A DNA stretch of 64,000 nucleotides from Eunapius fragilis (lineage: Eukaryota; Porifera; Demospongiae; Spongillida; Spongillidae): the NCBI GenBank assembly GCA_963681505.1, contig OY811991.1, positions 2,759,171 through 2,823,170 on the forward strand, in the 5' to 3' direction. Of the stretch, positions 17,936-55,911 are shown piece after piece. The number at the start of each line of letters is the position of its first letter. Positions within the stretch are counted from its first letter, which is position 1. Under the pieces are notes generated by a model. That model saw nothing but the letters and a program-made list of their open reading frames with translations. It did not search any database and had not been told where the DNA came from. Position numbers and translations under genes: made by a program.

Positions 17936-20845
17936 GTTAGGAACTTTAGTAGCAAGGGTAGGGTTTAAAAGCTTAGGGGTTTCATTTTCCGGACAGGGGG
18001 GGGGGAAGCTTTAGGTTAGGCCTAGACTTGGGTTTAATCAAATTCTACCTGGTCATGGCCTGGAGCCCAGAAGGCGCTGTTTTCGCCGAGAAACGAGCCA
18101 ACAAGTGGAAGAAGAGGAGCATCGGGTGGATAAAGAGGAGCCAAGCTCCAAAGCAGATGGCGTAAGTGAACTGATGAGAGAGGACCCGCCCACCAGATGC
18201 CATGTGGAGATGGAAGAGGAGCGTCTCCAGTCATCCCCCATGCTGGAGGAAGAGGGGCCTAGTCGTGAAGCGGACAGTGTGAGTGCGGCCAAGACAGGCA
18301 ACGGCATCTTTGTGACATCGGAACGCCATCAAGCGGGACTACTACCAACAACTTCGGATCATGCGATAAACTTCGTGGTCCTCTACCCCAGTCAGATGCG
18401 GTTCTCGTGCCCAGACTCTGGATGCCGTCTGACTTATACAACCCACACTTCCCTCGTCCATCACGTGGGCATATCGCACAAGCGAATGAATCTGAATATC
18501 AGATTCAAGTGCGCTGTGCGATTACGCCCACACATGCTACACTACCAACACGCTCACAGTGTCGCTGTACCTCCGCAGCAGATTGACAGGTCGAACGAGA
18601 AGATGCCCATTCTGTCCAATGACATTCCCATCTACCCGCTCCTGCTCCACCCATATCCAGGAAAAACACATGGGGGAGATGTGCGCGCAATGAGCTCTAG
18701 AAGCGGCGCAAAAAAAGCTGTCCAGCAGGGGGAGTCCACAACCAGAACCAAGTGGACCCAGCACCCGGCTGCACCGTAGACGGAATCGCCCACTCCTTTG
18801 TTCCTCCTCTGCAGCAAGTAGCCCCTTGTCCCAGCCATCAGAGAGCCACAAGTCACCAGGCCCCAGCAACGTCAGGCGGAACAGGCCAGTGGACACCAGG
18901 GCATTTCCAGCCCTAGCAGTACCTACAAGGCAGAGGCGTGGGACACCTCCCGATCAAATCTATGTCACCAACTCCATCGCAACCAGACCGTGCAGCAGCT
19001 GCTGGGCAACAGCTGCCTGCAGGAACTCTAACACCCCCCTCAGGCTGCAGTCTCCCGCAAGGCAGCACCGCAGCCCTGGGGTGGGTTGGTGACACCATCT
19101 ACCTACTGCGGCAACACAAGTTTCAGCCCAACCAGTTACCCACCCAGTCGTCCAAAGGGACCCTCCTCATCATCACATGCACCTCAGACTGAGGAGACAG
19201 CCGCAATGCTCATCAGTGCTTTGGACGATCAGTTAAAGGCACTGCTGCTCAACCCCCCCAGCTACAGCAGATCTTGAAGTGACCTGCTTCACCCCACCAG
19301 CTGAGCTGCCTACCCCTGCCTCCACCCCACCTCTGGTTACGGAGGAAGCGACCCCTCACCACCACCTGTGGCCATCCCAGGGGGAGGGGCACTGTGGCTC
19401 CTTAACAAATTGCTGGATATTCTCGGGTCGAACAACATTGTGATGTGGGACCCTGAGGCTCATGCTTTTCCCCACCACCTACGGACCTGGTCACTCCTTC
19501 ATCCACCCCATCTCCGGCTACAGTCTCCGAAAGGCAGCACTGTAGTCCAGGGGTGGGTGTGGCCCGCCAGCCGCAGTCACCACCAGCTGCCACAACACCT
19601 GCTCCAGCTATCATCAACCTGGACCAGTCGAGGTCGGTGCCTGCTGTGTCTTCAGAGGAAGCCCCAGTGCCACCACCCTCCATCTTCAGGTCCCTTCTGA
19701 ACGTCCCATCATTCATCCTGGGTGCACATTGGACATCCTCCATGGTCCAACAGCTTGACCAGGTGTTACACTCTTTGAGAGGAGAGGCTCCAGACACCCC
19801 CCTCTCACACCACCATCCTCACCTGTCCACACCCCCACCTACGCCACATGGAGATGGGTAGACCCAAAAAGTTTCATCCTGGTCCTGGTGTTTAACATCT
19901 GCTGCCGCAACTCAAAGGTCCCCCCGCGTAGAAACACTCCGTCACCCTCATCCACAAGGGGGGTGAACAAGATGAGGAACTGGCGTCCCATCAGCCTCCA
20001 GCTCACCTGCTATAAGCTGTATGCAGCCATCATTGCCAGGCGTGTTGCTTCCTGGGCCACGGCAACATCATCCTTCGTGAAAGGCTTCCTAGCCTATGAT
20101 GGGTGCTCGGAGCACAACTTTTTGTTGCGCTCCATGATAACTAACTGCCGGAGAAAAAGAAAGGAATTTGGTCCTGACATGGCTGGACATCAGGGAGGTA
20201 ATTCCATTGGTATTCACACTATCTGATGCTCTCCCTAATGGAGCGTTTTGGCCTCTCAGGGACCCTACTGAGAGTGGTCCAGGACATCTACAGCGGCGAC
20301 ACCATTACCGTGAGAACTGGAAGGGATTCCTACACTACCAACAACCCCCAGCGGCATGGTGTCAAGCAGGGGTGCCCTCTCAGCCCCATCCTTTTTAACA
20401 TAGAGCTAGAGTGACTCCTGCGGCACTTATCCACAAGCCGGCAGGGTACTTAATTGGTGGATATAGCTTATGCTGACGATGTGTGTGTGGCAGCCTCAAG
20501 CAAGGAGGTCCAGGCTATGCTGGACAGATGTGCGGCCTTTAGGGACTGGGCAGGTATTAGGTTCAATGCATTAAAGTGTGGCTCCTTGTGTATGGTGAAC
20601 CATGCACCACGTATATATGTGGACTGCTTATTCACGGGACTGAAGTGATCCCAGCACTTGCTTGGGAAGACAGATACCGGTACCTTGGTTGTCCCACTGG
20701 GGCATACCGGACGAAGGGGCAGGACCTGAACACCATCAGTGGGGACCTAATCAAGAACACCACCACCATCTTCAAGTCCCCCTTTGCAGAGTGGCAGAAG
20801 CTGGGCGTCTTTCAGCGGTTCCTTTTCCCCAGGTTGACCTTTGTA
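17936..20845 (+). mobile_element. Family C copy with 5' UTR, zinc fingers and RT; 3'-truncated
   Basis: The 5' UTR has the family's G-run followed by TTAGGTTAGG (18003-18020) and a CTACCTGGTC segment. The frame 18105-18779 encodes an acidic N-terminus and one good C2H2 finger (FSCPDSGCRLTY ... HHVGISH); the second finger is damaged and the Myb domain is lost after KWTQ. A Pro-rich linker with many stops follows to about 19870. RT pieces are in several frames: NWRPISLQLTCYKLYAAIIA, GFLAYDGCSEHNFLLRSM, GVKQGCPLSPILFNIELE and IAYADDVCVAASSKE (YADD near 20469). It ends in the thumb at about 20840. Multiple frameshifts and a missing endonuclease make it dead. Confidence 0.8.
18045..18074 (+). other. 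Degenerate U2-antisense-like stretch in family C 5' UTR
   Basis: ACCTGGTCATGGCCTGG and the following bases align with the reverse complement of U2 snRNA nt 4-32, as in the better preserved copies at 46261 and 53402. This copy carries extra mismatches, some not wobble-compatible, in keeping with its general decay. Confidence 0.4.
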
Positions 20846-24063: not shown

Positions 24064-24250
24064 GCTTTAGCATTTTTTTTTGCATTCGTTATTTTTGTTC
24101 TGCTTTGTAATTCTTTCTGTTCTATTATATTAGATGTTTTTTCATAACTTATCATTATTCATTTACTTGCACTGTTGCGGGCCCGTATACGCTAACGTTA
24201 CGCCAAAGTTGGGTACCGCTCACATTATGGCGATTCAAGAATTGGTTGTG

Positions 24251-26710
24251 AAGATCAAGTAGAAATAACTATTGATGTCATTGGTGTCTATCAACACCAC
24301 ATAAAGCTCTACTTATCGGGTGAAGCACCAAATTAACGCGCCATCCTGAAGTAGAAGATTTGTCTTGTGACGTCTTCACGTAAGTGAAAGTTTTGGCGTG
24401 ATTGATCTTAGCCAGGGGGCCGGACAAAAGGGTTTTCCTACAACAACTTTCCGATTCAAGGGGCGTTGGAGGTTTTTCCCTAAGGTTTACAAACCTACAA
24501 TCCATAATGGAATGGAACTGGTACTCTACGGTGTCCACTTTGCTCGTCATGCTTCTGGAGAGCATCGTCGTATGAAACCCACGTACGACGCCATCGTGTG
24601 CCACCTATTAGGGAATTATGCGGGTGTAGTGTGTGTCCAACAACATACTTAAACAAAACAGAGGTCAAAACACATTTTCGCGCCAATCACACACCCCAAT
24701 TAGACCCCACCGTAGTCACGGTCGTCATTCCGATACGGAAACTGAGGAGGACTTAGAAACCTGGCTGCACTGTGACTTTTGTACTAAGTCCTTCCGGACT
24801 AATAGGGGTCTGTTGAACCATGAGCAGGCAATGCACCAGGCCCAACGGTAAAAAATTTTAGCAGCCAACAAAGCCCAATCTAAATCCAACCGTTGGACGG
24901 AACAGGAAATAGATCGCTTTAAACGCCTTGTGCAGACCTTCGGACTGAAATCCAACAAGCTATTAGCTAGGAAAATGGGGATAAAATCGATGGGGCAGGT
25001 AGCCGGTTTTAAACAACGCTTTCTTCGCAAACACCCGTTATGGAGGAGATTTGATTACGGAACGCCTACACTCGACTTGTCACCACGCTCCTCATTAACG
25101 GAAACGACTAGCTCCCCGGCTTCTACTGTTAGCAACAAAGTCCCGTCACCGTCTACCACCAAAATGGACTCTAGCGACTGTGACCGTTTTGCTGCTAGTC
25201 TCACCCAACATCGTGCCCAGTCCACTCTTCTAAATAGGGCTGATGACTTAATTGCAGCACTAAGGGTACCCATCCTCTCAGACTAATGAACAATCTGAAG
25301 CACTCACAGAGCTGGGCCAGAGAGTTGACCAACGAATTCAACAAAATCCAGCCATACCACGAGACCTGGAGATCAGCCCATCTCTACAAACACCAGTGGA
25401 ACCTGTCTATGAGAGACTTAGAGTGGCAAAGGCTTGATGCCTTTTGTAGGTTCCTTGTCCCTCGACTCACATATGTCCTGAAGGTGTTTTTCCCGGGTTC
25501 ATCATGGTGCCGTCAACTGGATACTAGTTTACGGAAGTGGGTAAAAAAAGGAGCATCTATTCCATCTCGCTCGTGCTCAGCCTTTGCCTACACCCCGTAG
25601 ACTCTTGGGGGATGAGGAGAGCCTTGCTGTGAGGATGAGATGCATGTTGCACGTGCATCTCAGGCCTTTAAATTCCTGGCTGATACCCGAGACCCCACGA
25701 TTAGATCCATTGCCTTAAAACAGCTCGAGAAGGTAGTACGCAAACGTGCACACATCCCACGAGCATCTCCCTTGACCATGGATGACCTGGCTGCCTTCCT
25801 CAACACACCTGCACCATCACAGGAAGGCATGGTGATGTGAAGAGCCTGTGGAGCTCTGTACTGGGTAGCCTACAATTCACCAACTCCTCACTCCGTCTGA
25901 CACCTGACTCAGCCACCATCTTAAGAAATGGAACTGAGCTCTCCTGGCATAAATGCCATCAGGTGAACCAGACTATCAAAGCCGCCACCATAGTAAGACA
26001 CCTCACGCCCTCCAACAAGCCACTGACCAGGGACGTACGAGTTTTTCAATGTGCCTTGCTGAAGCTTCAGACTTTTTTACCTACTCAGGGGCATATCTCA
26101 CCTTCCCTTACCCTGAGAACTTGATTGAACTTCCTCCCGCCCAGGACTGCTCAAGCAAGAAGTTGGTTCATCTATTCATGACACCCGCTGTTAGCGCTGT
26201 CACCTCGTATCTGAGACACTATCACACATCATAACCTCGGCCTGGAGAAAGACCGCCATAATGCTATCCCTGAACGTGTCATCCGCGCAATCCCTCGGAC
26301 TCTAGGCGATATGTACAAGGAACAGCCACTGCCTGGCACATCGGGGCGACCTCACCATTATATCACCAGTTGGTCAATTGAAAATCCTACTAGATTATTC
26401 CATCCCATTTGAAGGGGTCCCCAGACACTCTTCAAAAGGCTGCACTGCACAAGATCAACAAATAAGAACCTCTGCAACAGACACTGCTCCGCTTTGACAA
26501 TGTGAAATTTCTCCCATTCATAGTAGGGAGTCTGGGAAGTTGGTTCCCACCCAATGACACAGCGACTCCACATTGGTTGGAAGTATGCAATCCTCATGCG
26601 TAGGTTGTGCGTCGCCTCTGTCTTAGCAGGATCTTAAAACATCTGGTACCACTCCACCTGCTCCCACCCCGGTACCAACACCCCCGGCCATCTTCGGCTC
26701 CCAGACCTAC
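24251..26710 (+). pseudogene. Family U-like copy: U2-junction 5' end, ZF-Myb, RT deleted, RLE remnant
   Basis: It starts with AAGATCAAGTAGAAATAACT (24251-24270), the same 20 bases that span the U2/Utopia-like junction at 40328-40347. A C2H2 finger (CDFCTKSFRTNRGLLNHEQAMH) and a Myb domain (RWTEQEIDRFKRLVQTFGL to LRKHPLW) lie in one frame at 24633-25286, with one stop at 24849-24851. The RT fingers and palm are deleted; from 25420 the frame resumes in the thumb (WQRLDAFCRFLVPRLTYVL), then the family C-like helical region (25640-26124) and scraps of the RLE (GDLTIISP near 26346). The post-RT part resembles family C more than the copy at 40338, so this may be a third subfamily or a chimera. Confidence 0.7.
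24402..24423 (+). other. U2 snRNA-antisense stretch in Utopia-like 5' UTR
   Basis: The 22 nt starting TTGATCTTAGCC match the reverse complement of U2 nt 9-30 as found in this window. Nineteen positions are Watson-Crick and the other three are A-to-G changes that leave G-U pairs. It lies about 140 nt inside the element. The sense U2 remnant AAGATCAAGT sits at 24251-24260. Confidence 0.6.
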
Positions 26711-27195: not shown

Positions 27196-28613
27196 CTACA
27201 TCTTGGTCAAGTGAGCAAGATCCCACAGCCAAGTATTGGGTGCTGTCACATCCAAGGGCAGAGCCGTTGAGATAGGGTTTTTTTCAGTGTTTTTTTTCCC
27301 TGGGGAATTGGTGTTGACCCACCCCCCTAAGTAAATCACTTGTCCGGTCAAACACTCTGTAGAAGCACTTGTTGATGGTGAAAATATGACTACTGGAGTT
27401 AGGGTCTACCCAGAAGAAGGTCTACTAGACTGCTCGTGGTGTTACGCGTCGTTCTGGAGGCCCAAGCAGAGGGAACCTCTTCCTTTACCTGTGAATCTGT
27501 TCAAAGTGCCAACGAAGTTTCCCCATTAGACAACAAGTGGCGAACCACTTTGCGAGCGCACACCCATCTACCTCAATGTTTCCTGCCAACGAGCACATTT
27601 TGGAAGAGGTAGACGATGAGGGTAATGCTACTGTCGCAGGTGGCACTGCCGTCGAGGCTGATGCTACCGTCGCAGGTAATGCTACCACCACGGGTGACGC
27701 TACCATCACAGGTGACGCTGCTGAGGACGGCAACGTTGACGACGCTAATGTCTATAAGTGTATGCACTGTGAAAGATACCTACCGTCGAAGAAGGGGCTG
27801 CACAACCACAAGAGCCGGTACCACCTAGCTGCTGTGTCAGCAATGCTCGTGCAACAGGCGTCAACTTTAGAGACGTGCGCTATCTCAACGGAGACCACGT
27901 TGTCGCAGGGACGACAAAAAAAAACATGGCAGAGCTGGACAGGAGCGGTGCAAAAGTTCAAGAAGGCGGTTCAAAAAGTGGGGTAGAGAAAAACAAAGAA
28001 TTGTCCAGATTGATGGGAACGAGGAGCGAACCTCCTCCTCACACGTTCCGTGAGAAGATCTGGGGGAGCAATAGCGGACGTGAGCTGCCCCAAATGTCAC
28101 CTGGAACAAGAGACACTAGCTCACGTCCTTAACCACTGCCCACCACACATGGGTCTGATTCGGCAGCGACACAATAGGATCCTCCATCGGCTTGCCAAGG
28201 CGGTCCTACTGGCAAAAGGAAGGTAGTTCTTAGAACAAATGGTACTGGGGGAAAACAGGAACCTCAGACCAGACTTAGTCATAGTGAACGAGGCCAAATC
28301 GGAGGCCTACATAGTTGATGTGGCAGTACCCATAGAGGGAGAAGAGTCCTTCCCAGCCGCCAGAAGGGCCAAGGAAGACAAATACCATCACCTCAAGGCC
28401 CTTCTGCGTGCGAAAGGCATCCAAAAAGTTGAGGTCGATGGTTTTGTGGTGGGTGCACTGGGTAGTTGGGACCACGAAAATGAGGGGGTCGTGAGAAAGC
28501 TGTCCATTGGGTCCAGATATGCGACCCTCTTCAGAAAATTGAAGCCATTAAGGGCAGCTACGCCATCTGGAGGGCAAAGACAGGGTGACCCGGATCCCCT
28601 AAATGAGGAGTGA
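27196..28613 (+). pseudogene. Family U copy with large internal deletion (ZF to Myb joined to CCHC-RLE)
   Basis: The 5' UTR contains TCTTGGTCAAG (27201) and the family's GGTTTTTTTC...CCACCCCCCTAAGTAAA segment (27270-27340). The ORF begins MTTGVRVYPEEGLLDCSWCY at 27387, matching the N-terminus at 40545, and holds a damaged first finger, the end of a second (ANHFASAH) and a third finger (YKCMHCERYLPSKKGLHNHK). A six-residue repeat follows the second finger. In the Myb domain (FKKAVQKVG) it jumps near 28040 to the CCHC knuckle (VSCPKCHLEQETLAHVLNHC) and a readable RLE (RPDLVIVNEAKSEAYIVDVA) ending at 28613. Linker, RT and thumb are missing, so it cannot transpose. Confidence 0.8.
27621..27746 (+). 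repeat. 18-bp coding repeat (six-residue unit x7)
   Basis: Between two zinc fingers the frame reads GNATVA, GGTAVE, ADATVA, GNATTT, GDATIT, GDAAED, GNVDDA. Each unit is 18 bp, so the frame is kept. The family U copies at 40545 and 55912 have only a short acidic spacer here. The array lengthens an interfinger linker. Confidence 0.8.
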
Positions 28614-28799: not shown

Positions 28800-29550
28800 T
28801 TTCTGGGTGTTTTTACGGGTGGGGGGTAAAGCCTTAGGTTAGGTACAGCGTTAGGTCTAAGGGAAGGATTGGGGTAAATTCTACTTGGTCTTGGTCAGGA
28901 GGTCTGAGGGTGTAGGCCCATCTTATACTTTCCAAATATTATTTTGCCCGAAATGGACCTCCCACCGAATGAAAATGAAGATATCGAAAGGAGAAGACCG
29001 AGTGAGTGTCCAGATGATGGAAATGAGAACCGCGTGACTCCGACAGCTGGCGGCGAGTCTGAAGAGACAGAAGAGAACCACGTGACTCCGACCAATATCG
29101 GTGGCGAGCCTGAGGGTCACGAGGAGACGGAGAACCACGTGGCTCCTAATACCGGAACAACCAGCGCGCGGGCCCAGAGTACGGACTTCACCATCGCACA
29201 TCCAACGCGTCCCTTTTACCTGTCCAGTAAGTGCGCTGACTTATCCAAAACACACCTCGCTTGTCTGAACCTCAACATCACGTTCAAATGCGCTCTATGT
29301 GACTACACTCCTGCGAACAAGCGGTCGACGTCGCTCCTCATCCGGCACGCTACTGACCCTGATCACCTCGAGGGGTGGCTAGCCACCACAGCACGCCCAT
29401 TGGAAGGAAAGGCTGGGGACTTCCAGTCCCTTTGGAGCTCAGTGCGCGGCAGTCTCATTCTGACGGGGTCCTTCGTCAAGCTGACGGAGGAATCTGCCAC
29501 ACTGCACACAGCTAAGCATACTATCAAGTGGGCCAAGCGCAATATCACAT
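28800..29550 (+). pseudogene. Family C chimeric ORF: N-terminus joined to post-RT region
   Basis: The 5' UTR has the G-run, TTAGGTTAGG and an ACTTGGTCTTGGTCAGGAGG stretch. The ORF starting near 28944 encodes the acidic N-terminus (EENHVTPTNIGGEPEG), a damaged first finger and a second finger (FKCALCDYTPANKRSTSLLI). At RHAT/DPDHLEGW (about 29350) it jumps over Myb, linker and RT into the post-RT helical region (EGKAGDFQSLWSSVRGSL ... HTIKWAKRN). The frame stays open through the joint to about 29730. Homology ends near 29550. The joint is an internal deletion or template switch within family C. Confidence 0.78.
28883..28910 (+). other. U2 snRNA-antisense stretch in family C 5' UTR
   Basis: ACTTGGTCTTGGTCAGGAGG and adjoining bases pair with U2 nt 11-32 using Watson-Crick and G-U pairs only. 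The stretch is nearly identical to the one at 46261. Confidence 0.5.
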
Positions 29551-35959: not shown

Positions 35960-37735
35960 GGAATTTCTGCTTGGTCTTATCACGGTCTTCGCAAACTGGA
36001 TCGGTGATCGGTGATTGTCATCACTCGTCGTATCGTTTCGCAGCCCGACAAATCATCTACCCCTTCGTCATTCTGTGCGACTATCTACCCTCTACCTCCG
36101 AGGGGTGCAAGGACCGTGAGGTTTGGAAAAGCCAAGAAGCTACGTGGTGGGTTTTTCCCCCCTAACTGCAGTAGGGTTTTTTTCCCGGGGACGAGGGTGA
36201 AGTGCCCACCCCCCCCCCCGAATAAACACCGATTTCCTGGCACCGTATTTTACTTTCTGCCAAAAATGGCAACAAGTTCTCCTCAAGCGGAGGTCTGGGA
36301 AAGAACCTACCCACTCCTGTCTGCGTTAAAATGCCCGTGCTGCTCTGCTTGCATGTGGGCGGAAAAATCTTTTGTTCGCCATGTACGAAGTCATTTCCTT
36401 GCCCCACCTAAGGAAGTCTGGGTCTGTGATGTGTGCCGAACGTTGGCGGACTCCAGAATCGCAATAGCGCAACATCACCGCTCACATCAACCAAGAGCAA
36501 CCTCAGCGCCACACCCCCCGATGATACAAACAACGACCGCTCGCGTGGCTACGTTTGCGAGTACTGTGAAGCGGTTCTGCCATCGAGAAAGGGTCTAACG
36601 AACCACGAAAGAGCACATCACCAACCGCTAGTCTCTGCCGCTCTCTCGAGAGATGCCTCCTCCGCGTTACCTCCGCATTTGTCATCTACGCGTTGGACGA
36701 AGGAGGAAATTGCTAAATTCATAGCAGCAGTAGACCGTTTTGGCTTTAAACAAAACGCCCTAATAGCGCAAGCTATCGGTACCCGCTCCTCAACTCAAGT
36801 GGCAAGCTTCAAGAAACGCTACAAATTAAAACATCCCGCTTGGGCTCTGAGGCATGAGCTTCCAACTATCACCCAATCCAACGAGCAGGGCACGCAGTCC
36901 TCCCCACACAGTCCCCAGGCAGCACTCCCCAGTGGAGCACTGACTCAGCAGTCTCGCCTGCAAGTTCATTTGGAGGAAATACTGCCCCTAGACCACATCT
37001 ACCTGCCATAGTAGAAGTCACTCCTGTATCCTCCCCTGATCACTCCTCTGTACAACACACATCTGTAATCTCTCTCCGCACACAGGCCACCCTACAGACA
37101 TGACCACCAAATCGCTAGTAAAGAAACACTTCAAACTCCCACGCAGAACAGTCTCTTCCTTTACTCTCCAACGAAGGCGGGTGGACTCGGCCTCCCAAAC
37201 ATTGAGGACAAGATCCACCTCTTCAGGGTCTCTACAGGGTCTCTACAGCCTTCAAGGTCCTATTTGCGCAGGATGCTCTAATTAGTGATGTCGCAGCCCC
37301 TGCGCTCGCTAGGACGGCAGAGATAGGGTCCAATAACCAGAAGACCGCCGACGGCTTCATCAGCAGCTCCCCTGACCCAGGAGAGGGAAAGCGAGGAGAT
37401 ATCACCTCACTGTGGAGTGAGGTCCGCACCTCCCTCCAACACTGCGGAGCAGAGATCCACATGGGTAATAAGTCCATCTCCTGTGGAGATACCTCGCTGA
37501 GCTGGTGCAAAAGGAAGTTTCTCTCAAGCCTCCTCAGAGATTCGGTGCAAAACCGTTACCTGGAGGAATGGAAACAATGCTCGGATCAGGGCAGAGCTAC
37601 TATTTGCACCTCAGCCCACCCGGCAAGTAACCATTGTGTTACCACCGGTAACTATACCAGCTTCGGAGAATACCGGTTTGCCTTAAAAGCCAGGCTAAAC
37701 CTCCTCCCGACAAGAACATCCTCAACCACTGTACC
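35960..37735 (+). pseudogene. Family U copy: three zinc fingers, Myb, RT deleted, post-RT region
   Basis: The 5' UTR has GCTTGGTCTTA (35969) and the T-run plus C-run segment (36149-36230). The ORF from 36266 encodes finger 1 (LKCPCCSACMWAEKSFVRHV), finger 2 (WVCDVCRTLADSRIAIAQHH) and, after a shift near 36530, finger 3 (YVCEYCEAVLPSRKGLTNHE) and a Myb domain (RWTKEEIAKFIAAVDRFGF to KLKHPAW). It stops at 37009-37014. The linker and RT are deleted; from 37100 it reads TTKSLVKKHFKLPRRT, then in shifted frames the IEDKIHLFR block and RGDITSLWSEVRTSLQHC to SFGEYRFALKARLNLLPTRT at 37730. It is the only copy with all three fingers readable but no RT. Confidence 0.78.
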
Positions 37736-40305: not shown

Positions 40306-40337
40306 ATCACTTCTCGGCCTCTTGGCTAAGATCAAGT
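40306..40337 (+). ncRNA. U2 snRNA gene, 5' 32 nt, interrupted by retrotransposon
   Basis: Thirty of 32 bases match the 5' end of metazoan U2 snRNA (differences at nt 4 and 16, as recalled from the human sequence), ending at GATCAAGT just before the branch-site recognition sequence. The Utopia-like element begins at 40338. No downstream remainder of U2 (GTAGTATCTG onwards) was found intact in the window. The gene is destroyed. Position and orientation match the known preference of Utopia elements for U2 genes. Confidence 0.88.
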
Positions 40338-40544
40338 AGAAATAACTACTTACTATTGTTTAGGCGATCAATAACCAAGCCTCGGGTGGTGTTTCACGCG
40401 AGGGCAAAGCAGCTGTGACAAGGTTTTTTCACCCTCTGTCATACACAACAAGGGTGTTTTTTTCCTTGGGGATTCTGGTGTTGGTCCACCCCCCTAAATA
40501 AATATAGTCCGACCGAGCTCTTTGTAGGTCCGAGAAGAAGAACA

Positions 40545-43500
40545 ATGGCTGAGAGTCTCTCCGAGACGAACGAGTGGATAAGAGTCTACCCTGAAGTAGG
40601 AGTGCTAAGCTGTCCCTACTGTCAAAAGTCATACTGGAAGGCCAAACAGAGGGAGAAGCACGTGAGGAGATACCATGGCCCTCGACAGGAACGATGGAAG
40701 TGTGTGACTTGCTCAAGAGCCTTCTCGACGAAACAGGGGGCGGGAATTCACTACGCGAGCGCACACTCGAAAGCAAATGATGGCCCTAGCGTCGGGGGAC
40801 CAACCGTGAGGGAGGAGGATGGTGAGTAAGAGTCGCTCGCGTGCTCTTTCTGTGGCAGGAGTCTACCCTCTCGACAGGGCCTCCGTAACCACGAGAGACG
40901 GTGGCATCAAGCGGAGGTATCTACGCGTCTCGCGAACCAACCCGACCGCCCGAAGCAACGAGAGAGATGGTCGGAGGAAGAGGTCAGGAAATTTAAGGAG
41001 GCCATTCTTGCGAGGGGAATACGATCTAACAAGAGCATCGCGGAGATGGTGGCAACAAAAACAGCACGACAGGTGGGCTCTTTTAAGAGACGGTTCCTGA
41101 TAGATAACCCATTATGGGATACATTAATTGTCCCACCATCCGTGTCAACCTCCGCCTCCAAGAGCAATAATTCGCCGTCATCTAGTATCCTAGAGAGCTC
41201 CAACCCAGGGAGTCAACAAGGAGAGATGACATCAAGTTCAGGAGAAACCCCCCGAAATCAAGAAGTGGTTCTACCCAAGAGTCACTTGAACACTCCATCG
41301 CCTTCCCTGAGTGACCTGTTAACAAGGGGGCAGGTACCTGAGGAGCAACAGCTACCCCCAATGACTGGTCTGTCTGCTAGTACCCTGCAGGATCCCGAGA
41401 GAGTGGTCACCAATCAGCACCTCCCACTGACCTCTAATCAGAGGTCTAGGATCAACCTGGAGTGGGCTGACAAGACACTCCAGGCTCTGCGACGACCAGC
41501 AACGGGGAGAGAAGAGGCTGAGACTCCCCCAAGTGTCCCTGTCATGACAGGGGCTCAGGGAGCGCAACCTACAGCGGGAGGGGCAAACCCCCAAACAGAT
41601 GAAGTGCTCCAGATTATGGAGATTTTAGTGTCATCCCTATCCCCCTCAGAGGGAACTGGTGGGTTCGGTGTCTGGTACAGGAGGGGAAACACCCAAGAGC
41701 CTAAACCTGGAAGGGGTGCTGGACTGGAACCCACTACTGATTTCTCCACATCAGTGCACGGAGGACAGACCCCCAATGCCAGGGTGGCCATACAGTCCTC
41801 TTAGTCCGACAATGGCCCTAAACAATTCTGTTCACTGGTCCCCAGTTCTAGGATGGCCATACAGCCCAAGCAGCTCCAATACCAGCTTCACAGTCACCTC
41901 TAACAATCCAAGAGGAGTGGAGTTCCAATATGGACGAACTACGGGTGAGTTCACCCCGCTACCGCTCACAGTCCCCCCAGTCCCCAGACTTCCCTAGGCA
42001 TGGCCCCGACTACTCCCTGAGGGACTACATGCAGGGTTACAGGGTGGGAGGGCCCCAACATACTCAATGGCCTTATAGCCCATTGTCCTCCAGTACCCCG
42101 GGTCCTGGTCCAGGGCATGAATATGCCCTGTTGGGAACACGGAGTGGATGGACTCCCAGAATAGTGGGAAGGGGAAGTCCCCCATGGGGAAAAGAGGTTA
42201 CAATAAAGGAGTGGGTGCCCAGGTAAACAAGACCCCACTAGTACACCAACCAACGGGAAGGGGTATGCCAGTGGGGGGGGGGGGTTGGACCATCCAAGGG
42301 AACATGAGGATAGAGGAGGCCGGGTCCAAATGAGCATTGGCCATTCTAGTGGTGGGGGGGACGAGGGTAGTTCGAGCCATAACCAGCTAAGAGGGACAGA
42401 GGGCCCAGACCCCAGAAGAGGAGGTCAGGTAACCCCTAGTACGCCCACACAACCTGGTAGGGAAGGAAACCTGTTAAGAGGGTCAGGGGACCGGCATAGA
42501 CCAGTGGCCTCAGTACGGGATCAGCCCACACACTCCCAACCACAAGCTCCTATTACCAATCCCTCTAATGTCACCCCACTCCACTACCGATGGATATTAA
42601 AGACGACAGAGCCCCATACAGCTCTTCTCTCCACTAAAGCCACGATCAGGAAAGGTCCTCTCCTCAACAGAGTGGGCACTGTGGTGTCGAGATCTAGAGA
42701 AATGGACGGCAGGCCTGTCCCAGTGGGCTTTCAATCGGTCAAAGACTGCCACACCACAACAGGCCTGGTCGAGGAGACAGAGCCAGAAAAGAAGACAACT
42801 ACAGGGGGATGGATCTGGGAATGACTGGAATGCAGAGCCAGAAACAGATGACAGGCCCCAGAGGAGTAGAGGGAGAAACAGGATCATCACTCGGATGGCT
42901 AATCTCCAGAGGAGCTACAACACCTCCCCGAGGAGATGCATGGATGCCATCAGACACACGCCACCACCCCTGAGATGTGAAGTGCCTATAGGTGAAGTGT
43001 CCAACTTCTTCTCTGCCAAACTGGCAGCCCCACAGGGCATTGACCCTTATGTCCCACCACCTTTCCAACTGTGGAATGGTACGACACCGTGTGATGTAAT
43101 GGAGCACACAATCACCCCGGATGAGGTAAAGAGGACATTTCGGGCTATGGAGTTGGACTCTGCTCCTGGGCCAGACCGCATCAGGTACAAAACTTGGAAG
43201 CTCATTGATCCAAATCTGGAAGTCGTAACGGGGATCCTCAACACCTGCAGGACCAATGGGAAAATCCCGCCAGCCTGGAAGTTATCATCTACCATCCTTA
43301 TCCACAAGGGGGATGACCCATTGGTCCTGGACAACTGGAGGCCCATAGCATTGCAGAACACTATCTACAAGCTATATGCGGCCATAGTGGCCCGAAGGGT
43401 GTCGTCGTGGGCGGTTGAGTCTGGGATTATGAGTTCTTCCCAGAAGGGATTCCTCCCAATGGAAGGATGCCTGGAGCACAATCACCTCATGTCATCAGTG

Positions 43501-45964
43501 CTCCAGGACTCCAGAAGGAGGAAGAGACCGGCATATCTGGTATGGCTGGATCTGAAAGATGCATATGGCTCGGTATCTCATGATATATTGTTTCATGTAA
43601 TGAAACTGGCGGGGTTAAAGGGGAAAACTGTGGAGGTGGTGAAGGACTTCTACCACCTGTCAACCACATCCGTCCGCACCAAAAGTAACTCCACAGCCCC
43701 TATCAGGATTGAAAGGGGAGTCAAGCAGGGCTGCCCATTGAGCCCAATCCTCTTTAATCTTGTGATGGAGGTACTCATCCGAGCTGCGGAGGGAGTGGAG
43801 AGAGCAGGCTACAGGATAGCTAACTCGGTGGTCAAATCATTGGCATATGCAGATGACCTCTGCATACTGGCGTCCTCTCCACCCAAGCTGCAGGAGATGC
43901 TTGACAGAGTGTACAGGGCAAGTAAGTGGGCTGGAGTGGCCTTCTCGCCCAGAAAGTGTGCATCTCTGTCGCTAGAGCGGTCATACCGGGCCCGACAAAG
44001 AGTGGCCTCCCAGGCTTACCATCTAGGGGAGACAGCTGTACCCACCATGGCTTGGGAAAACAGATACAAATACCTGGGAGTGAAGGCAGGAGCCAACTCA
44101 GGGGTGGATATAGTGGTCGGACATCGGACAAAATCTGACCAAAACTGTACAATGTCAGCCCAAACTTCCCATTGTCGGACAAAAGTGCCGATCGTTTTTT
44201 AATGTAATTCACAAGTGTGGAATTGATTGTTTGTACAAACATAACCACTGAAAATCGTTTGTATAGACATAAGCCACATGAAGCGGTATTAAATTCATAG
44301 TTACTTAGATTAGCAAAGTTTGCTACGTAGCGCTACAGTACTGCGTGTACATCTATAAAGCCAACGATCGTAAAATGCATAGTTACATGTACGGGAAATG
44401 TTCCAAACCAATTAATCCACGCAAATAGGAATTATTAATCGTTTGTTCAAAATGGCCACGAAGCGGTCGAAAAGGCAGGCATCATTTGCGTGCTTTAAAG
44501 TGGCAATCCACATATGAGAATGTATTTAAAAGGACATATTTAGCAATGTCAGACCATGTCCGACCAACTCCCAATATGGTCTGACATTATGTCAGGCCAT
44601 TTCTGAAACCTTATATCCACCCCTGCAACTCCACCCCTGACCTGGAGAAACTAGGGAGAGATTACATCTCAGACATAGAGGCAATCACCAGGTCAGACCT
44701 CACAGACTGGTAAAAGTTAGATGCCATCCACCTGTTTGCCAAACCGCGCCTAGTTTATACCCTGCAAAACCAACTCCCAGCACTAAGCTGGGCAAAGACT
44801 CTCGACAGAAAGGTCAGAGCCCTGGTAAAGTGTAATCTAAAACTACCAAGGAGGACAACTGATGCTTTCCTCTACTCTCCTTGGCGAGCTGGAGGCCTGG
44901 GTCTCCCGAGAATTGAGGACGAGGTGCACATTTATGGAGTGTCCACCTCGTATCGCCTTCTGGCATTAAGCAAGGACCCCATAGTGGCGGATGTCTCTCT
45001 TGGGGCGTTAGATTTTACGGCCAGAACGCGTTCCCAGGGTTCTCTGTCCCCACAAGAGTTTCTGAACAGTCCCCCACAGAGGGGTGAAGGAAAACAGGGA
45101 GATATTATGTCTCGGTGGAGTAGGGTGCGAACGTCCATGCAGCTCTGTCAAGCTACCATCAACTTGACATCAAAAGAGATCCAAATAGCCGACAGAGTGT
45201 ATGGACCTGCCAAGAAAAGTCTGATTTGCAAAGCAATGAGGGCAGTTATGCAAGACCAACACCTGGCAAGATGGGGAAGAGCCAAGGACCAAGGCAGAGC
45301 GACGGGTTACCTGGCACTACACCCTGCCAGCAACCACTGGATTAGAGGGGGGAAATACACCTCCTTCTCAGAATACCGTTTTGCTCTCAAAGCCCGTCTG
45401 AATCTCTTGCCAACAAGAACTGTAAGGAAGAGATCGGGGGAAACCATCGTGGACGTGAGCTGTCCAAAGTGCCACCTGGAGCAAGAAACGCTTGCCCACG
45501 TTCTCAACCATTGCCCCCCTCATGTGGGTCTGGTGCGGTCCAGACACAATAAGATCTTAAACCGTCTGGCAAATGCGGTTCCACCAACAAAAGGGATTAA
45601 GATCCTGGAGCAGGTGGTTCCGGGAGACACCAGAGCCCTCAGACCTGACATGGTCATCCTCAATGAGGCAAAGTCAGAGGCCTTCATTGTGGACGTTACA
45701 GTGCCCTTTGAAGGGGAGGAGGCCTTCCAGGCGGCTCGCAGAGCAAAGGAGGATAAGTATGCATACTTGAAACCTCTCCTGCACTTCAGAAAAGTGGAAG
45801 TGGACGGATTTGTTGTTGGGGCCCTTGGAAGCTGGGACCCAGATAATAACAAAGTTCTACATAAGTTGTCCATCGGCCAGAACTATGCCATCATGTTCAA
45901 GAAGCTTTGCTGTACAGAGACAATTAAAGGTTCATATGCCATCTGGAGGGCGAAGACTGGTTGA
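40545..45964 (+). pseudogene. Utopia-like ORF: ZF-ZF-ZF-Myb-linker-RT-CCHC-RLE
   Basis: Finger 1 (LSCPYCQKSYWKAKQREKHV), finger 2 (WKCVTCSRAFSTKQGAGIHY) and, after an in-frame stop at 40827-40829, finger 3 (CSFCGRSLPSRQGLRNHERR) precede a Myb domain (RWSEEEVRKFKEAILARGI to FLIDNPLW, to about 41115). The Pro-rich linker to about 42600 has several frame changes. The RT frame is open from about 42640 to the hAT-like insertion at 44099: SAPGPDRIRYKTWK, motif A WLDLKDAYGS, motif B GVKQGCPLSPILFN, YADD at 43846-43857. Excising the insertion plus one TSD keeps frame, which then has one stop at 44711-44713. The CCHC knuckle is at about 45462-45515, RPD at 45641-45649 and VDV around 45689-45697. The protein would nick U2 DNA and prime cDNA there. 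Confidence 0.85.
44099..44625. mobile_element. hAT-like non-autonomous DNA transposon, 527 bp, 5-bp TSD
   Basis: Perfect 14-bp terminal inverted repeats CAGGGGTGGATATA / TATATCCACCCCTG, flanked by CAACT at 44094-44098 and 44626-44630. Subterminal GTC(A/G)GAC(C/A)-type motifs repeat at both ends. Only a vestigial ORF start (ATGGCCACGAAGCGG, near 44452) remains. The insertion interrupts the RT thumb codons of the Utopia-like ORF; 532 bp (element plus one TSD) must be discounted for the frames to match, and they do. Confidence 0.82.
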
Positions 45965-46116: not shown

Positions 46117-46189
46117 CGGGCCTTATTGCTGTTTGCAATTATACTCTTTAACTGTTCTTACGAGTGTAACTGGTTTCAGTTTCTGGGTG

Positions 46190-49100
46190 TTTTCGGGTGG
46201 GGGGAAAGCCTTAGGTTAGGTAAAGCGTTAGGTTTAAAGGGAAGGGTTGGGATAAACTCTACTTGGTCTTGGTCAGGAGGTCTGAGGGCGTAGGCCCACC
46301 TTATACCCGCCGAAGATTATTTTGCCCGAAATGGACTTCCCACCGGACGAAGACGAAGAGGCCGAAAGGAGAAGTCCGTGTGAGTGTCCAGAGGATGTCG
46401 ATGAGAACCGCGTGACTCCGACAGCTGGTGGCGAGTCAGAAGAGAACCACGTGACTCCGACCAATACTGGTGGAGAGCCTGAGGAGACGGAGGAGAACCA
46501 CGTGGCTCCTAACACCGGAACAACCAGCGCGCGGGCCCAGAGTACGGACTTTACCGTCGTACATCCAACGCAAGTCCGTTTCACCTGTTCAGTATGCGCG
46601 CTGACGTATCGAAAGCACGCCTCGCTCATTCGTCACGTGGGTGTGTCACACAAGAGTGTGAACCTCAACATCAAGTTCAAATGCGCTCTGTACACTCACG
46701 CGAACAAGCGGTCAACATCGCTCCACTTCCGGCACGCCCACGGCGTCGCTATCCCTCCGGCGACGATTGACGGGTCCAAGGAGAAGGCGTGTCCCTTCTG
46801 CCCTCTGACGTTCCCATCCAGCCACTCGTGCTCCATCCACATCAGGGAGAAGCACATGGCTGAGGCGTGCCAGCAACGCTCCCGAGAGGCAGCACAGAAG
46901 GAGGCCCAGCAGGGTGTGTCAACAGCCTGTACAAAGTGGACCCAGCGCGAGATAGAACTCTTCAAGGCCGCGCTCGCAAAGTACGGGCCTGCATCCAACA
47001 TCAAACTGGCCAAAGAGATCGGGACCAGGTCTACAGAGCAGGTCAACGTTTATAAGTGCAGGTTCCTGAAGGCTTACCCAACTTGGGTATCGGAACATTA
47101 CCACCCGGCCACACCTATAGACGGAACCGCCCGCTCCTCCGCTACGACACGTAGCCCATCCTCGCAGCCACAGGCTGGTCACACACCTCCAGGCCCCAGC
47201 AACACCCAGGGGAGCAGGACAGCGGGCCCCAGGGCACTTACAGTCCCAACAGTAAACTCAAGCCGGAGGCGTGGGGCACCCCCCGCATTTCCCACATCGC
47301 CACCATCATCACCACCAGATGCAGCAGCTGCCGGGCAACAGCTGCTTACCAGGTCTCCAACATCTACCACCCCACACCAGGCTGTGGCCTCCGCAAGGCA
47401 GCACTACAGTCCTGGGGTGGGTGAGGCACAATCACAGACCCCTGCGGTGACGCCACCTCCGACCCCACCAATCACCGTTTCCCCAGTCACCGCTCAACCC
47501 AGCCAAAAGGAAAGGACCCCCTCACCACCACCTGTGCCTGTCTCAGAGGGAGGGGTACTGAGGCTCCAGCTCCTTGACCAAGCGCTGACCATCCTAAGGT
47601 CCAACAACATCTCCGTGTGGGACCCTGAAGCCTCTTGCTTCTCCCTACCGGCAACGGACCTGGCCACCCCGACATCCTCCTCACCTCTGACTACGGTCCC
47701 CGCAAGGATGCACTGTAGCCCAGGGATGGGTGGGGCCTGCCAGCCTCAGCCACCACCAGCTACCATCCTACCCTACCTGCTCCAGCAACCACCCCACCTC
47801 CGGCTCCAGTCACCGCAAGGAAGCCCTATAATACAGAGGTGGGTGTGGATCACCTGATGTCGCCGTTCGCTGCATATCCAGAGGAGGCACCAGTGTCACC
47901 ACCCTCCATCTTCCAGTCCCTCCTGCACGTCCCGCCATTCGTCCCGGCTGTCCCACGTACATCCATGACACGACGACTGGATCAGGCGTTACAATCCCTG
48001 AGAGGAGAGGCTCCAGACACCTCCCCCCCTCCCACACCACCATCCTCGCCTGTGCACACCCCACCCCCGGCTACGGTCCCCGCAAGACAGCACCATAGTA
48101 TGGAGATGGGTGTGGCTGCAAGTCAGCCGCCGACCGTCCTTCCTGCTGCTATGGAGTCTGTCCAGCCTACACCACTATCACCACCTGGACTGCCTCCACC
48201 TCCAACCAGGGTCCCTGGCCCATTGGAACGGATCGTCATTGACCCTGATAACATGGATCCGACCCTACGTCTGCCATTTCACCAGGAGCTCCTCCCATTC
48301 GCTGACCGAATGCTGGGGGACTTTGAGTGGGTGGCATTCGAATGTGTCTTAGATCGTTGGTCCACAGCCATCAAGGAGGTGGTGATTGCACAACGCCGCC
48401 GCCCCCTCATCCAACCTCAGTGGGCACGTCGCCAGAGAAGACGACACGCAGGGAATCAGCCACAGCCGCAGCCTCCATCACCATCCCCCTCACTTCCACC
48501 GGACCCGTCGCAGTCCACCGAGCCACAGGTCCCGAACACACCCAACAACCGTGCTTCGGTTCGAGCTCGCCAGGCGGCCAAGTCGAGGTATCTGCAGAAG
48601 CTGTATTGTTCCAACCCTGGGGCATGTATGCGGCGACTATTGGACAATGGTCCTCCTGTTTATTGTACCATCCCAGAGCCTGACCTTGTGGGCCACTTTA
48701 CCACCACCTACGCGGAGTCTCCTCCACTGGGCCCACCCCCCGCCTGGCTGTTCCCAGACAGACAGTCAGGTGAAACTGGGGTGTCTGGAGCCACTGATGA
48801 GGGTGATGTCCTCCAGTCTCCGTTCACTCCAGAGGAGGTGGTGACTCAGTTCAAGAGGACGAAGCGAACATCTCCGGGTACTGACGGCATCACCTACGCC
48901 AACTGGAGGTGGGTGGACCCTAAGGGGGTTGATCCTTGCTACCATCTTCAACACCTGCAGGATCAACTCCAGGGACCCCCGCCCCTGGAAACATTCAACC
49001 GTCACCCTCATTCACAAGGGGGGCGACACAGCCAACATCAGGAACTGGAGGCCCATCAGCCTCCAGCTCACAGTGTACAAACTCTATTCAGCCATGATAG

Positions 49101-52485: not shown

Positions 52486-53250
52486 CGAATACCGTTTTGC
52501 TCTCAAAGCCCGTCTGAATCTCTTGCCAACAAGAACTGTAAGGAAAAGATCGGGGGAAACCATCGTGGACGTGAGCTGTCCAAAGTGCCACCTGGAGCAA
52601 GAAACGCTTGCCCACGTTCTCAACCATTGCCCCCCTCATGTGGGTCTGGTGCGGTCCAGACACAATAAGATCTTAAACCGTCTCGCAAATGCGGTTCCAC
52701 CAACAAAAGGGATTAAGATCCTGGAGCAGGTGGTTCCGGGAGACACCAGAGCCCTCAGACCTGACATGGTCATCCTCAATGAGGCAAAGTCAGAGGCCTT
52801 CATTGTGGACGTTACAGTGCCCTTTGAAGGGGAGGAGGCCTTCCAGGCGGCTCGCAGAGCGAAGGAGGATAAGTATGCATACTTGAAACCTCTCCTGCAA
52901 GCCAAGGGCTTCAGAAAAGTGGAAGTGGACGGATTTGTTGTTCGGGCCCTTGGAAGCTGGGACCCAGATAATGACAAAGTTCTACATAAGTTGTCCATCG
53001 GCCAGAACTATGCCATCATGTTCAAGAAGCTTTGCTGTACAGAGACAATTAAAGGTTCATATGCCATCTGGAGGGCGAAGACTGGTTGACTCTGTGTGTG
53101 TATGTGGGGGAACAATCCTACTTATGCGTACCATATAAGTGCACGCACCGCAGTGGGCGGAATGTTGATTTGTGTACTTGTGTGTACCTGGCCGATGAGC
53201 CAGAGAGTGCCACCCCGCAAGGGGTCACCTCTCCGGAGGTGCGGGCCTTA
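52486..53250 (+). pseudogene. Family U fragment: CCHC-RLE and 3' UTR
   Basis: The frame from YRFALKARLNLLPTRT through knuckle CPKCHLEQETLAHVLNHC and RLE (RPDMVILNEAKSEAFIVDVT, GSWDPDNDKVLHKLSIGQNY) to the stop at 53087-53089 is open. It is nearly identical to 45375-45964 but keeps the QAKG codons that the reference copy lost in a 9-nt deletion at about 45785. The 3' UTR repeats the hairpins. The upstream RT is missing because the fragment is fused at 52485 to family C copy 2. Confidence 0.85.
53212..53241 (+). other. 3' UTR twin hairpins (GCAA and UCCG loops)
   Basis: ACCCC-GCAA-GGGGT (53212-53225) and CACCTC-TCCG-GAGGTG (53226-53241). The only change from 46087 within the first hairpin is GCGA to GCAA, which keeps the GNRA consensus. 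Confidence 0.75.
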
Positions 53251-53300
53251 TTGCTGTTTGCAATTATACTCTTTAATTGTTCTTACGAGTGTAATTGTTT

Positions 53301-55911
53301 TCGGTTTCTGGGTGTTTTTTTCGGGTGGGGGGAAAGCCTTAGGTTAGGTTAGGAAGCGTGGGTTTAAATTAGGTTAGGCCAAGCCTTAGGTTTTGATTTC
53401 TGCTTGGTCTTGGTCGAGAGCCGGGAAGCTCCCTTCTCGAAAAACTGTCAAAAGCGGTGGAAGACTCGGGGATTTTGGAGGAGGCGGAGCCTGCTCAGGC
53501 TGCCGACGAAGAAAGACCGCCGGATGAAGGGGGTTCACTTACCCTGAAGCGGATGACGTAAGTGCAGCCGAAACAGAAGTTGACGAGACGGATACTGGGA
53601 CCACGTCAGGACGCCAACAACAACCAGGGGATGCCGGAACGGGAGTCTCCATTCGTCCCCTGACCAGCCGACACGTGACGGACCTCGTCATAATCCACCC
53701 GAGTCAGACCCGCTTCACATGCCCGGACACTGGATGCCGACTCACATACCCCACCCACACCTCCCTCGTCCGCCACGTGGGTGTGTCACACAAGCGCATG
53801 ACCCTCAACATCTCGTTCAAATGCGCTTTATGCGACTACACCCACGCAAACAAACGATCTACCTCGTTACACTTCCGACACGCTCATGGTGCGGCAGTTC
53901 CTCCAGCGTCGATTGAAGGCTCCAACGAGAAGGCATGTCCCTACTGCCCATTGACATTCCCAACGATGCGCTCGTGTTCCACACACATGCGCGAAAAGCA
54001 CATGGGGGAGGTATGTGCCCAAAGGGCCAGAGAGGCCGCGGAGGAGGTACAGCGGGGGACGTCAACAGCGCGAGCCAAGTGGACTGAGCGTGAAGTCGAT
54101 CTGTTCAAGACGGCACTAGCTAAATATGGACCGGACTCCAACATAAAGCTCGCAGCTGAAATCCAGACCAGGTCTGCAGCGCAAGTGAACGTGTTCAAAT
54201 GGCGTTTCCTTAAGGCTTATCCATCATGGTTAAGCGAACATTACCATCCAGCGCCACCCGCGGGCAATGCCCTCAACCCTCGTCACGCCTCATCGTCACC
54301 ACGCAGCCCGTCCTTACAGACACCTTAAGACCGCTCCCCCAGTGTGACCCAAGCACCCAGGACACTAGTAGGCACTGGAGCAAGACCTGCCACTGAAAGG
54401 ATAGCTGTAAGGTCTGGAAAAGGAACACGGCCTGTCACTGCTGTTCCATCATCACCATCATCCCAACTAGCAGTATCTCCACCTGGTCCACAACTAGCAG
54501 CCAGAACAGACACCCCTCCATCTCTGGCTAGTCCGGAGGCGGGAGTAGCCCTTCAACCAGCACTGTCTGATGCAGCAACCACGCCCATGGCACAGTCACC
54601 CATGAGCCCACCCCACAATGCTCCACGATCCAGTCCGGGTGGTGAAGAGAGAACCCCTTCACCAGCACCTGTGCAGCTCTCTGAGGAGGGAGTTGCAAGG
54701 GTTCAGCGCCTCGACCGGATGCTGCAACTACTGAGGCCTCAAACCGTCTCATCTTCGACACTCCCAGCAGGCACTACCACCCCCATCTCTATGCTGCCAG
54801 CAGCTGACCTGGCGTCTACCGCCCCCCACCCCACTCATAACTCCGGACACACCAAGGATGCCCTACATCCCAGGGGAGGGTGTAGAACAGCCATCGGCAC
54901 CATCACGGGCTGCGATGGTCTCTTCGTCCGACAACCTCTCTGACCTACCACCCTCTGTCTTCCACTCCCTCATCAATGCCCCGCCTTTCATTCCCGGAAT
55001 GTTATATCTGGAGGCACCTACAATGTCGCCAGAGAGTGAACCAGCGCTGACACTCGCCACCTCCCGGTCGTCCCTGGATGCACAGCCATTCATTCCAGGT
55101 ACAACCTGGACATCAACAAGGGTCCAGCGACTGGACCAGGTACTGCTAACCCTGAGGGAGGGGATCGCTCCAGACACCTTCCCCCCTCCCACGCCACCAT
55201 CTTCACCTCAACACGCCTCACCGCCGACTGCGGTCTCCGAAAGGCAGCACTGCAGCCCGGCGGTGGACGTTGTCATCAGCCAGCCGCTATCTATGTCGCC
55301 AGCTGTGGGAGGGGTCAACCCGCCAACACCACCGTCGTCACCTGGCCAACTACCACCTCCGGCTGGGGCCCCCGGTCCACCAGCTACCATCACCATCGAC
55401 CCAGAAAGGATGGATGAAACCCTGCGTATGCCCATGTACCAGGAGCTCGCCCCCTTGCTGAATGAACTGGCAGAATGGCAGAAGCTCGATGCCTACCGCC
55501 GATTTCTGTTCCCCCGTCTGAACTTTGCGCTCAAAGTAGTGTTCCCAGGGGCTACATGGTGCCGAAAGCTGGACACGGCTATTCGGGCTATCATCAAGCG
55601 GGGACTACACCTCCCACCAAGGACCTGCACACAATACCTCTACTTGTCGCAGGCCTTGGGGGGGATGGGTATTCCAAGTGTTGAGGATGAGTCCCACGTA
55701 GCGCGTTCAGCCCAGGCCTTCAAATTTCTATCGGACTCTAGGGACGTCAGGGTGCAGAACGTGGCAATTGACCAGCTGGTGGCAACAGTAGCCAAGCGGG
55801 CCCCTTATCTGGACCCTACTGACCCCGATCACCACGAGAGGTGGCTAGCCACCACAGCGAGCCCATTGGAGGGAAAGGCTGGGGACCTCCAGTCCCTTTG
55901 GAGCTCTGGAG
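53301..55911 (+). mobile_element. Family C copy 3: 5' UTR, ZF-Myb, linker, RT deleted, post-RT part
   Basis: The 5' UTR (53301-53450) has a G-run, three TTAGG units in a row and the longest U2-antisense stretch. The ZF-Myb frame (53675-54328) has three good fingers and a Myb domain (KWTEREVDLFKTALAKYGP to LKAYPSW). A stop at 54326-54328 is followed in the same frame by the Ser/Pro linker to 54943 and, in another frame, 54858-56060. The linker ends at MYQELAPLLNELAEW and jumps from the pre-RT region to the thumb (QKLDAYRRFLFPRLNFALKV), so fingers and palm are deleted, yet the frame is open across the joint. It continues LYLSQALGGMGIPSVEDESH to DLQSLWSS at 55911. Confidence 0.82.
53402..53429 (+). 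other. Longest U2 snRNA-antisense stretch, family C copy 3 5' UTR
   Basis: GCTTGGTCTTGGTCGAGAGC and the next eight bases pair with U2 nt 5-32: 27 of 28 U2 positions are matched (21 Watson-Crick, 6 G-U) with one U2 base bulged. It includes CCGGGAAG, opposite CTTCTCGG of U2, a part less well kept in copy 1. Confidence 0.62.

Follow-up and report, generated by a model that had tools for sequence, protein, structure and literature searches.

The window, by which we mean the whole stretch of 64 kb that was analysed, is a nest of decayed R2-like non-LTR retrotransposons inserted into one another. Pieces of reverse transcriptase (RT), N-terminal and C-terminal regions were found within it by tblastn at many spots, on the plus strand throughout. 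The RT ORF of one element, here called element A, matches the RVT_1 domain (1.1e-33), and its best solved relatives are PDB 8gh6 (9.5e-45), labelled 'reverse transcriptase-like', which we take to be R2Bm, and 9nl2, 'R2 retrotransposon protein' (7.3e-43). Downstream of the RT, the region 44714-45961 matches the R2 C-terminal region (7.7e-30) with RPD/VDVTV aligned, that is, a restriction-like endonuclease (RLE). Matches of N-terminal regions to zinc-finger C2H2-type and Myb domains recur with E from 3e-5 to 9e-3, all below the Pfam cut-offs, and the N-terminal regions of families C and E have only ~33% identity.

Judged from these elements and from a piece of U2 described below, the source of the DNA is a eukaryote. 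The elements are U2 gene-targeted, R2-like non-LTR retrotransposons of the RLE type, and probably Utopia-type elements, as far as sequence comparison can place them. No relatives of these elements were found by protein and alignment scans of viral and genome contig collections; DNA patterns hit 29 loci of the viral contigs in one scan and 4 in another, and on reading, the flanks of those 4 loci contained no U2 gene.

Several other structures were seen in the window. The segment 49470-53368 is a 5'-truncated family D copy that lies in an RT ORF. It is interrupted by the segment 50607-52045 with 147-bp perfect inverted ends, and at ~52487 it passes into the 3' end of family A, as a chimera or through an internal deletion. 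On the minus strand, 9845-9941 forms a strong long hairpin, which several microRNA precursor models matched well below their gathering scores. At 15209-15241 there is a short series of CTAACC units, the telomere repeat TTAGGG read in reverse.

Element A is preceded by the beginning of U2 snRNA, and element E by what looks like a decayed version of it. The features concerned are as follows.

40306..40337, plus strand: U2 snRNA nt 1-32 in sense orientation, directly upstream of element A (the U2 leader; Rfam U2)
40338..40348, plus strand: 5' terminus of element A, AGAAATAACTA, adjoining U2 nt 32
42601..45961, plus strand: RT and restriction-like endonuclease region of element A, two ORFs (RVT_1, PDB and R2 C-terminal matches)
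24219..24260, plus strand: decayed U2 leader, judged by eye, before element E; it ends in AAGATCAAGT, its only exact part
24261..24271, plus strand: 5' terminus of element E, AGAAATAACTA (21-mer match)

The Rfam U2 match scores 33.8 bits where the gathering score is 46, with E of 0.0044 for the whole window and 3.4e-05 for 501 bases. A permissive Rfam search listed U2 at 40306-40373 only, and no family reached its gathering score. Clear likeness is limited to the first 32 nt, where 30/32 positions are identical to textbook U2. The 21-mer made of AAGATCAAGT and AGAAATAACTA occurs at 24251 and 40328 only, with up to 3 mismatches allowed and 0 occurrences expected in the window; thus elements A and E, which belong to diverged families, share a terminus directly after U2 nt 32.

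At the other end of the elements, stretches similar to U2 nt 39-58 (15/20 matches) lie at 46151-46170 and 53276-53295, after family A-type 3' UTRs. By their letters they would fit the expected Utopia 3' flank or a target-site duplication. No such stretch was seen after the family A-type 3' UTRs at 28772 and 35912. Four 3' UTRs (28757-28785, 35896-35925, 46087-46115 and 53212-53240) have in common a double hairpin, for example CCCCGCGAGGGG then CACCTCTTCGGAGGTG, which is perhaps a protein-binding structure; in family A it ends with ACCTCTCCGGAGGT, and it precedes both of the 15/20 stretches.

The 5' UTRs of the elements hold sequences antisense to the same part of U2, in most cases continuing into the complement of the element terminus (AGAAAT). 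The energies in the list are for pairing with U2 1-32, and family C and D copies are named by position.

18043..18078, plus strand: decayed family C copy of the antisense (C18), -28.9
24400..24423, plus strand: element E, antisense to U2 nt 32-9, -41.1 kcal/mol
27219..27233, plus strand: element F, weak antisense GATC-CCAC-AGCCAAG to U2 nt 28-25 and 22-16 (pattern match)
28877..28911, plus strand: family C copy (C28), antisense to the U2/element junction, -43.3
35963..35980, plus strand: element H (H36), ATTTCTGCTTGGTCTT, antisense to U2 nt 23-32 and AGAAAT; its 16-mer is identical to 53396-53411
40346..40379, plus strand: element A, antisense pieces 1-3, with pair probabilities of 0.68-0.99 in the native co-transcript fold; piece 1, CTACTT (40346-40351), pairs with U2 29-32 and AG, piece 2, GATC (40366-40369), with U2 nt 25-28, and piece 3, CCAAG (40375-40379), with U2 nt 16-20
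40526..40537, plus strand: element A, piece 4, AGGTCCGAGAAG, complementary to U2 nt 5-15 apart from a single bulged base, pair probabilities 0.74-1.00
46256..46289, plus strand: family C copy (C46), antisense to the U2/element junction, -41.3
53396..53429, plus strand: family D copy (D53), antisense to U2 nt 5-32 and AGAAAT, -43.3

Pairs were counted against the window's own U2 copy (40306-40337). The region 53402-53429 pairs with U2 nt 5-32 at 27 of 28 positions, by 21 Watson-Crick and 6 G-U pairs with U2 nt 13 bulged: 53402-53420 contributes 14 and 5 against nt 32-14, and after the bulge nt 12-5 contribute 7 and 1. The region 46261-46282 pairs with U2 nt 11-32 by 17 Watson-Crick and 5 G-U pairs. 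Both counts agree with the preliminary description of this DNA, which had also called the copy at 28883 similar and the one at 18045 decayed; indeed, the former is the same as 46261 across nt 32-11, and in the latter (18045/18047) three of the changes within nt 32-14 are incompatible and three are wobble changes. The site of element E at 24400, missing from that description, was newly found. Here U2 nt 31 is mismatched, nt 30-18 are matched exactly (13 bases), three A>G wobble changes follow down to nt 9, and the match is lost from nt 8 on.

The antisense is contiguous in C, D and E and split into colinear pieces in A. The sequence CCGAGAAG occurs in the window only in piece 4 of element A and on the minus strand of U2 itself. 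The distance from antisense to ATG is 7 nt in element A (ATG at 40545) and ~40 nt in the 46261 copy. As to coding constraint, the antisense of C46 does not belong to the downstream ORF: positions 46283-46285, inside it, are an in-frame stop for that ORF. The window has no U2 leader at the C and D copies. The copies C28, C46 and D53 come after the end of a family A-type 3' UTR, and C18 sits inside the RT ORF of another element.

The complementarity to U2 is a real, non-random feature of these 5' UTRs. In an RNAduplex scan of both strands, the top four sites after U2's own antisense were 28883, 53402, 46261 and 24400, all on the plus strand and in element 5' UTRs, with energies of -43.3, -43.3, -41.3 and -41.1 kcal/mol; the next site had -33.5 or weaker. 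Among 60 dinucleotide shuffles of U2 1-32, a site of -40 or better appeared in 1/60 and two such sites in 0/60. When each UTR was itself shuffled, none of 150 shuffles was as good for any of these four sites; the other four of the 8 UTRs did not stand out by this single-duplex measure (C18 8/150, A 30/150, H 41/150, F 44/150). Exact antisense 8-mers numbered 12 in the 8 UTRs, six of them overlapping words of E, against 0.64 expected from their density elsewhere. Shuffled queries (n=500) gave at most 9, and the 8 that were observed without the C and D copies were reached by 2/500.

The preliminary description had pointed to unrelated snRNAs as a comparison. Six of the seven other snRNA segments stayed at -36.5 or weaker, with no comparable site for U2 33-66, two segments of U1, two of U6, and U5. 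The seventh, U4 1-32, had a single minus-strand site at -40.6 kcal/mol (~19037-19080), opposite the coding sequence of the 18-kb element, which we took as chance.

Which molecule is the partner? Past U2 nt 32, the copies C28, C46, D53, H36 and C18 complement the AGA(AAT) terminus of the element and not U2 nt 33-38. We compared the pairing energy with the junction, U2 1-32 followed by the element's own 5' terminus AGAAAT, and with intact U2 1-38 in six copies, A and F being left out. The junction was preferred in five: -51.9 vs -43.9 for D53 (53402), -50.6 vs -45.2 for C28 (28883), -47.9 vs -45.5 for C46 (46261), -28.2 vs -20.3 for H36 (35969), and -36.2 vs -32.3 for C18 (18047). The exception is E (24400), with -41.1 for the junction vs -42.2 for intact U2; the antisense of E pairs poorly with E's own decayed leader (-17.2). 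The 16-mer 53396-53411, which is identical at 35963-35978, also occurs with up to 2 mismatches on the minus strand, where it coincides precisely with both U2/element junctions (24251 and 40328). The other matches are 28877, 35963 and the unrelated 12779; 6 were found vs 0.07 expected. Both the junction preference and the 16-mer matches favour pairing in cis, within a U2-element co-transcript, over U2 snRNA or an empty target as the partner.

Three partners had been proposed earlier: the U2 leader in a read-through transcript, the snRNA itself, and the displaced target strand. The read-through leader is favoured by our comparison and narrowed to the U2/element junction, given that 5/6 copies prefer AGAAAT; the same preference speaks against the snRNA and the displaced strand. 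The letters give direct support to the complementarity, to its extension into the terminus in most copies, and to one U2 leader plus one decayed one.

The same pairing was sought in predicted folds. In the RNAfold prediction for the native segment 40306-40548, four colinear pieces of the 5' UTR pair with the U2 leader and cover most of it; the pair probabilities for leader nt 5-10 are 0.98-1.00. The interaction energy of element A is -12.2, which was equalled by 0/100 UTR shuffles, 5/100 leader shuffles and 1/300 random windows. When the decayed leader of E was replaced by U2 1-32, the value was -24.0, equalled by 0/100 shuffles of both kinds and 1/300 random windows. With U2 1-32 added in silico, the gain was -5.3 for C46 (27/100 UTR and 9/100 leader shuffles as good) and -5.9 for D53 (27/100 and 30/100); this net gain is small because the G-rich 5' UTRs fold strongly by themselves. 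The remaining elements with the leader added gave -9.3 for C28 (4/100 UTR and 3/100 leader shuffles as good), -8.9 for C18 (17/100 and 74/100), -5.1 for F (10/100 and 26/100) and -4.4 for H (11/100 and 32/100). The values for F and H are not significant, although the 16-mer is present in H. These models support the cis fold for A and E; for C and D they do no more than permit it.

The preliminary description had further stated that good copies differ from the exact complement by A>G and C>T only, the changes that keep a wobble pair. Indels apart, this holds for the substitutions in 28883 and 46261 (nt 32-11 in both) and in 53402 (nt 32-5), and the newly found 24400 obeys it over nt 30-9; the rule is broken by the incompatible base of 24400 at nt 31 and by the three in 18047. 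Substitutions were counted by hand from the aligned letters, leaving indels aside, over nt 32-6 in C, 32-5 in D, 32-22 in H and 30-9 in E. Within these limits the good copies have 13 distinct substitutions (10 in C, D and H taken together, 3 in E), of which 13/13 retain a wobble pair; this count excludes E nt 31-32 (one incompatible, one wobble), everything beyond these limits, and copy 18047. G+T makes up 62-69% of the C and D 5' UTRs, a composition that favours wobble-keeping changes anyway, and 50% of that of element E. With G+T allowed for, the chance of 13/13 is 7e-5 to 0.012 for a transition share of two thirds to 1. If the 3 incompatible changes of 18047 are counted as well, the tally becomes 13/16, with a probability of 0.007 to 0.27 depending on the transition share. 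As to A-to-I editing as a source of A>G, about half of the sites have a 5' G, and a 5' G is disfavoured by ADAR.

The antisense is not an island of conservation in the two pairs of copies compared. Between C46 and C28 it has 32 positions the same and 2 different, against 113 and 10 in the flanks (Fisher p = 1.0); between C46 and D53 the figures are 16 and 3 against 50 and 19 (p = 0.38). The earlier proposal that the stretch is selected for pairing with U2 therefore survives in part: the wobble enrichment is suggestive, and the G/T-rich UTRs, the decayed copy and the flank-level conservation weaken the claim. As read from aligned letters, the wobble-only argument is suggestive and not decisive. 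The presence of the antisense in both C and E, despite ~33% N-terminal identity, means that it either survived a long divergence or was gained repeatedly.

The reading that we tentatively favour as the best one, at something below an even chance, is a cis "leader lock" in a U2-element co-transcript, which would stand where R2 has its ribozyme fold. The U2 promoter would drive the synthesis of an RNA that begins with U2 nt 1-32 and continues into the element. The 5' UTR would hold the complement of the leader and of the first element bases, so that the host-derived leader would be folded into a long stem, with the 5' UTR supplying its 3' strand. This stem could serve as a 5' module of the RNA, protecting the leader and holding the RNA end. 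That end would later be copied into cDNA, and the U2 part of the cDNA may anneal to the target, which could produce the identical 5' junction of A and E. In many R2 elements, the same job has been ascribed to the leader and its HDV-like ribozyme fold, which contains 28S sequence. That U2 and element are transcribed together, that the RNA folds in this way in vivo and that the stem is used as a 5' module are what we infer from the pairing and its models.

A further-reaching reading is rather doubtful: a ribozyme-free 5' module, in which a junction complement in the 5' UTR locks an snRNA leader through a wobble-tolerant stem of up to ~33 bp, with layouts that differ by family. To our knowledge, the making of the RNA 5' end in target-specific retrotransposons that depend on host transcription is best worked out for R2. 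Should a leader-antisense stem take the place of an HDV-like ribozyme in U2-targeted elements, the problem would have a second, simpler answer. One could then predict where the template's 5' end lies and understand why 5' junctions are uniform, and tools that insert genes from an RNA template might borrow the stem as a designable 5' module.

Against the leader lock stands the view that an inverted U2/element 5' junction was acquired in the 5' UTR once or a few times, by fold-back, template switch or an inverted neighbour, and has drifted since, the wobble changes being transitions in a G/T-rich region. We consider such passive capture rather unlikely, although much is consistent with it: the copied unit is the junction in 5/6 copies tested, the C and D 5' UTRs have the base composition just mentioned, 18047 has its three incompatible changes, the antisense is conserved no better than its flanks, and C46 and D53 gain little from the leader. 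However, element E, at 50% G+T, has 13 exact bases and only wobble changes over nt 30-9, element A has its antisense as colinear pieces, and the divergence of the C and E N-termini would need long survival or repeated origin of the captured piece. The 13/13 wobble-compatible changes in good copies (p of 7e-5 to 0.01 by model) also argue against drift.

Other explanations accept the pairing as functional and give it another role. It could be the P1 stem of an R2-like, HDV-like self-cleaving ribozyme with U2 as the 5' strand, and R2 ribozymes do place host 28S in P1, with strands 23 to >700 nt apart, as reported in PMC3774820; but we regard this as improbable. The pairing spans ~22-33 bp in C, D and E vs ~7 there. 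Rfam listed no HDV-like family, either for the window or for the surroundings of A and E. A search for the HDV topology in 5 sequences gave 0 solutions; it was made with a home-made scanner, run without a positive control, for which shuffles likewise yielded almost no solutions. A little less probable still is a guide function, in which the 5' UTR would pair with the displaced top strand of U2 at integration and tether the RNA 5' end upstream of the cut. The same complementarity would serve, it is located upstream of the 5' junction at nt 32, and rG-dT and rU-dG wobble would be tolerated; yet the empty U2 target has GTAGTA at nt 33-38, and 5/6 copies favour AGAAAT. The junction preference also tells against pairing in trans with U2 snRNA, whether for nuclear retention, hijack of the U2 snRNP or interference with splicing. 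Up to 27 pairs with U2 nt 5-32 could form, but this region of U2 is engaged in stem I and with U6 in the mature snRNP, and we regard this role as very improbable.

The leader lock, our preferred reading, can be set beside the systems already described. Utopia elements are non-LTR retrotransposons of the RLE type that target U2 snRNA genes (Kojima and Jurka 2015, PMC4640811). As far as the main text of that paper describes them, the elements of the window share with them the RT and RLE, the U2 5' fragment upstream and the nesting of several families, and perhaps the zinc-finger-like N-terminus, for which the matches stay below the Pfam cut-offs. Insertion into the U2 gene is indicated on the 5' side by U2 1-32 directly before element A; U2 nt 39-58-like sequence (15/20) follows two of four element A-type 3' UTRs and may correspond to the Utopia 3' flank, which starts at U2 nt 39, and the RT is of the RLE (R2/NeSL-like) type. 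They differ in the 5' junction at nt 32 and in the junction antisense in the 5' UTR, and the terms ribozyme, antisense and complementary occur 0 times in the main text of PMC4640811. According to the same text, Keno has the same U2 target gene and 3' flank as Utopia, but it is of the APE type, with an apurinic-like endonuclease, whereas the elements here match R2 RLE proteins.

The likeness to R2 concerns the 5' end. By the account in PMC3774820, many R2 lineages self-cleave within the 28S leader by an HDV-like ribozyme whose P1 comes partly from host sequence, and the leader that is kept is proposed to make it possible for the cDNA to anneal with the target, giving uniform 5' junctions. For an R2-based insertion system, PMC11331408 reports a benefit from a stable fold at the template's 5' end, which may act by limiting decay from that end. 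In common with R2 elements carrying the 28S-containing HDV-like ribozyme, the elements of the window would keep a host leader paired with the 5' UTR, by prediction in native A and in E with the U2 leader, and uniform 5' junctions are a further common feature. The difference lies in the pairing, which is a P1 of ~7 bp within an HDV-like fold in R2 and ~22-33 bp, or colinear pieces, here. Among the matches listed on U2-targeted retrotransposons and on antisense or co-transcripts of snRNA genes, titles and abstract openings describe no such antisense, supplements and subscription journals being outside this scope. Within these sources, U2-targeted RLE elements and the pairing of the host leader in R2 are already known, and the antisense to the leader junction in the 5' UTR is what appears to be new.
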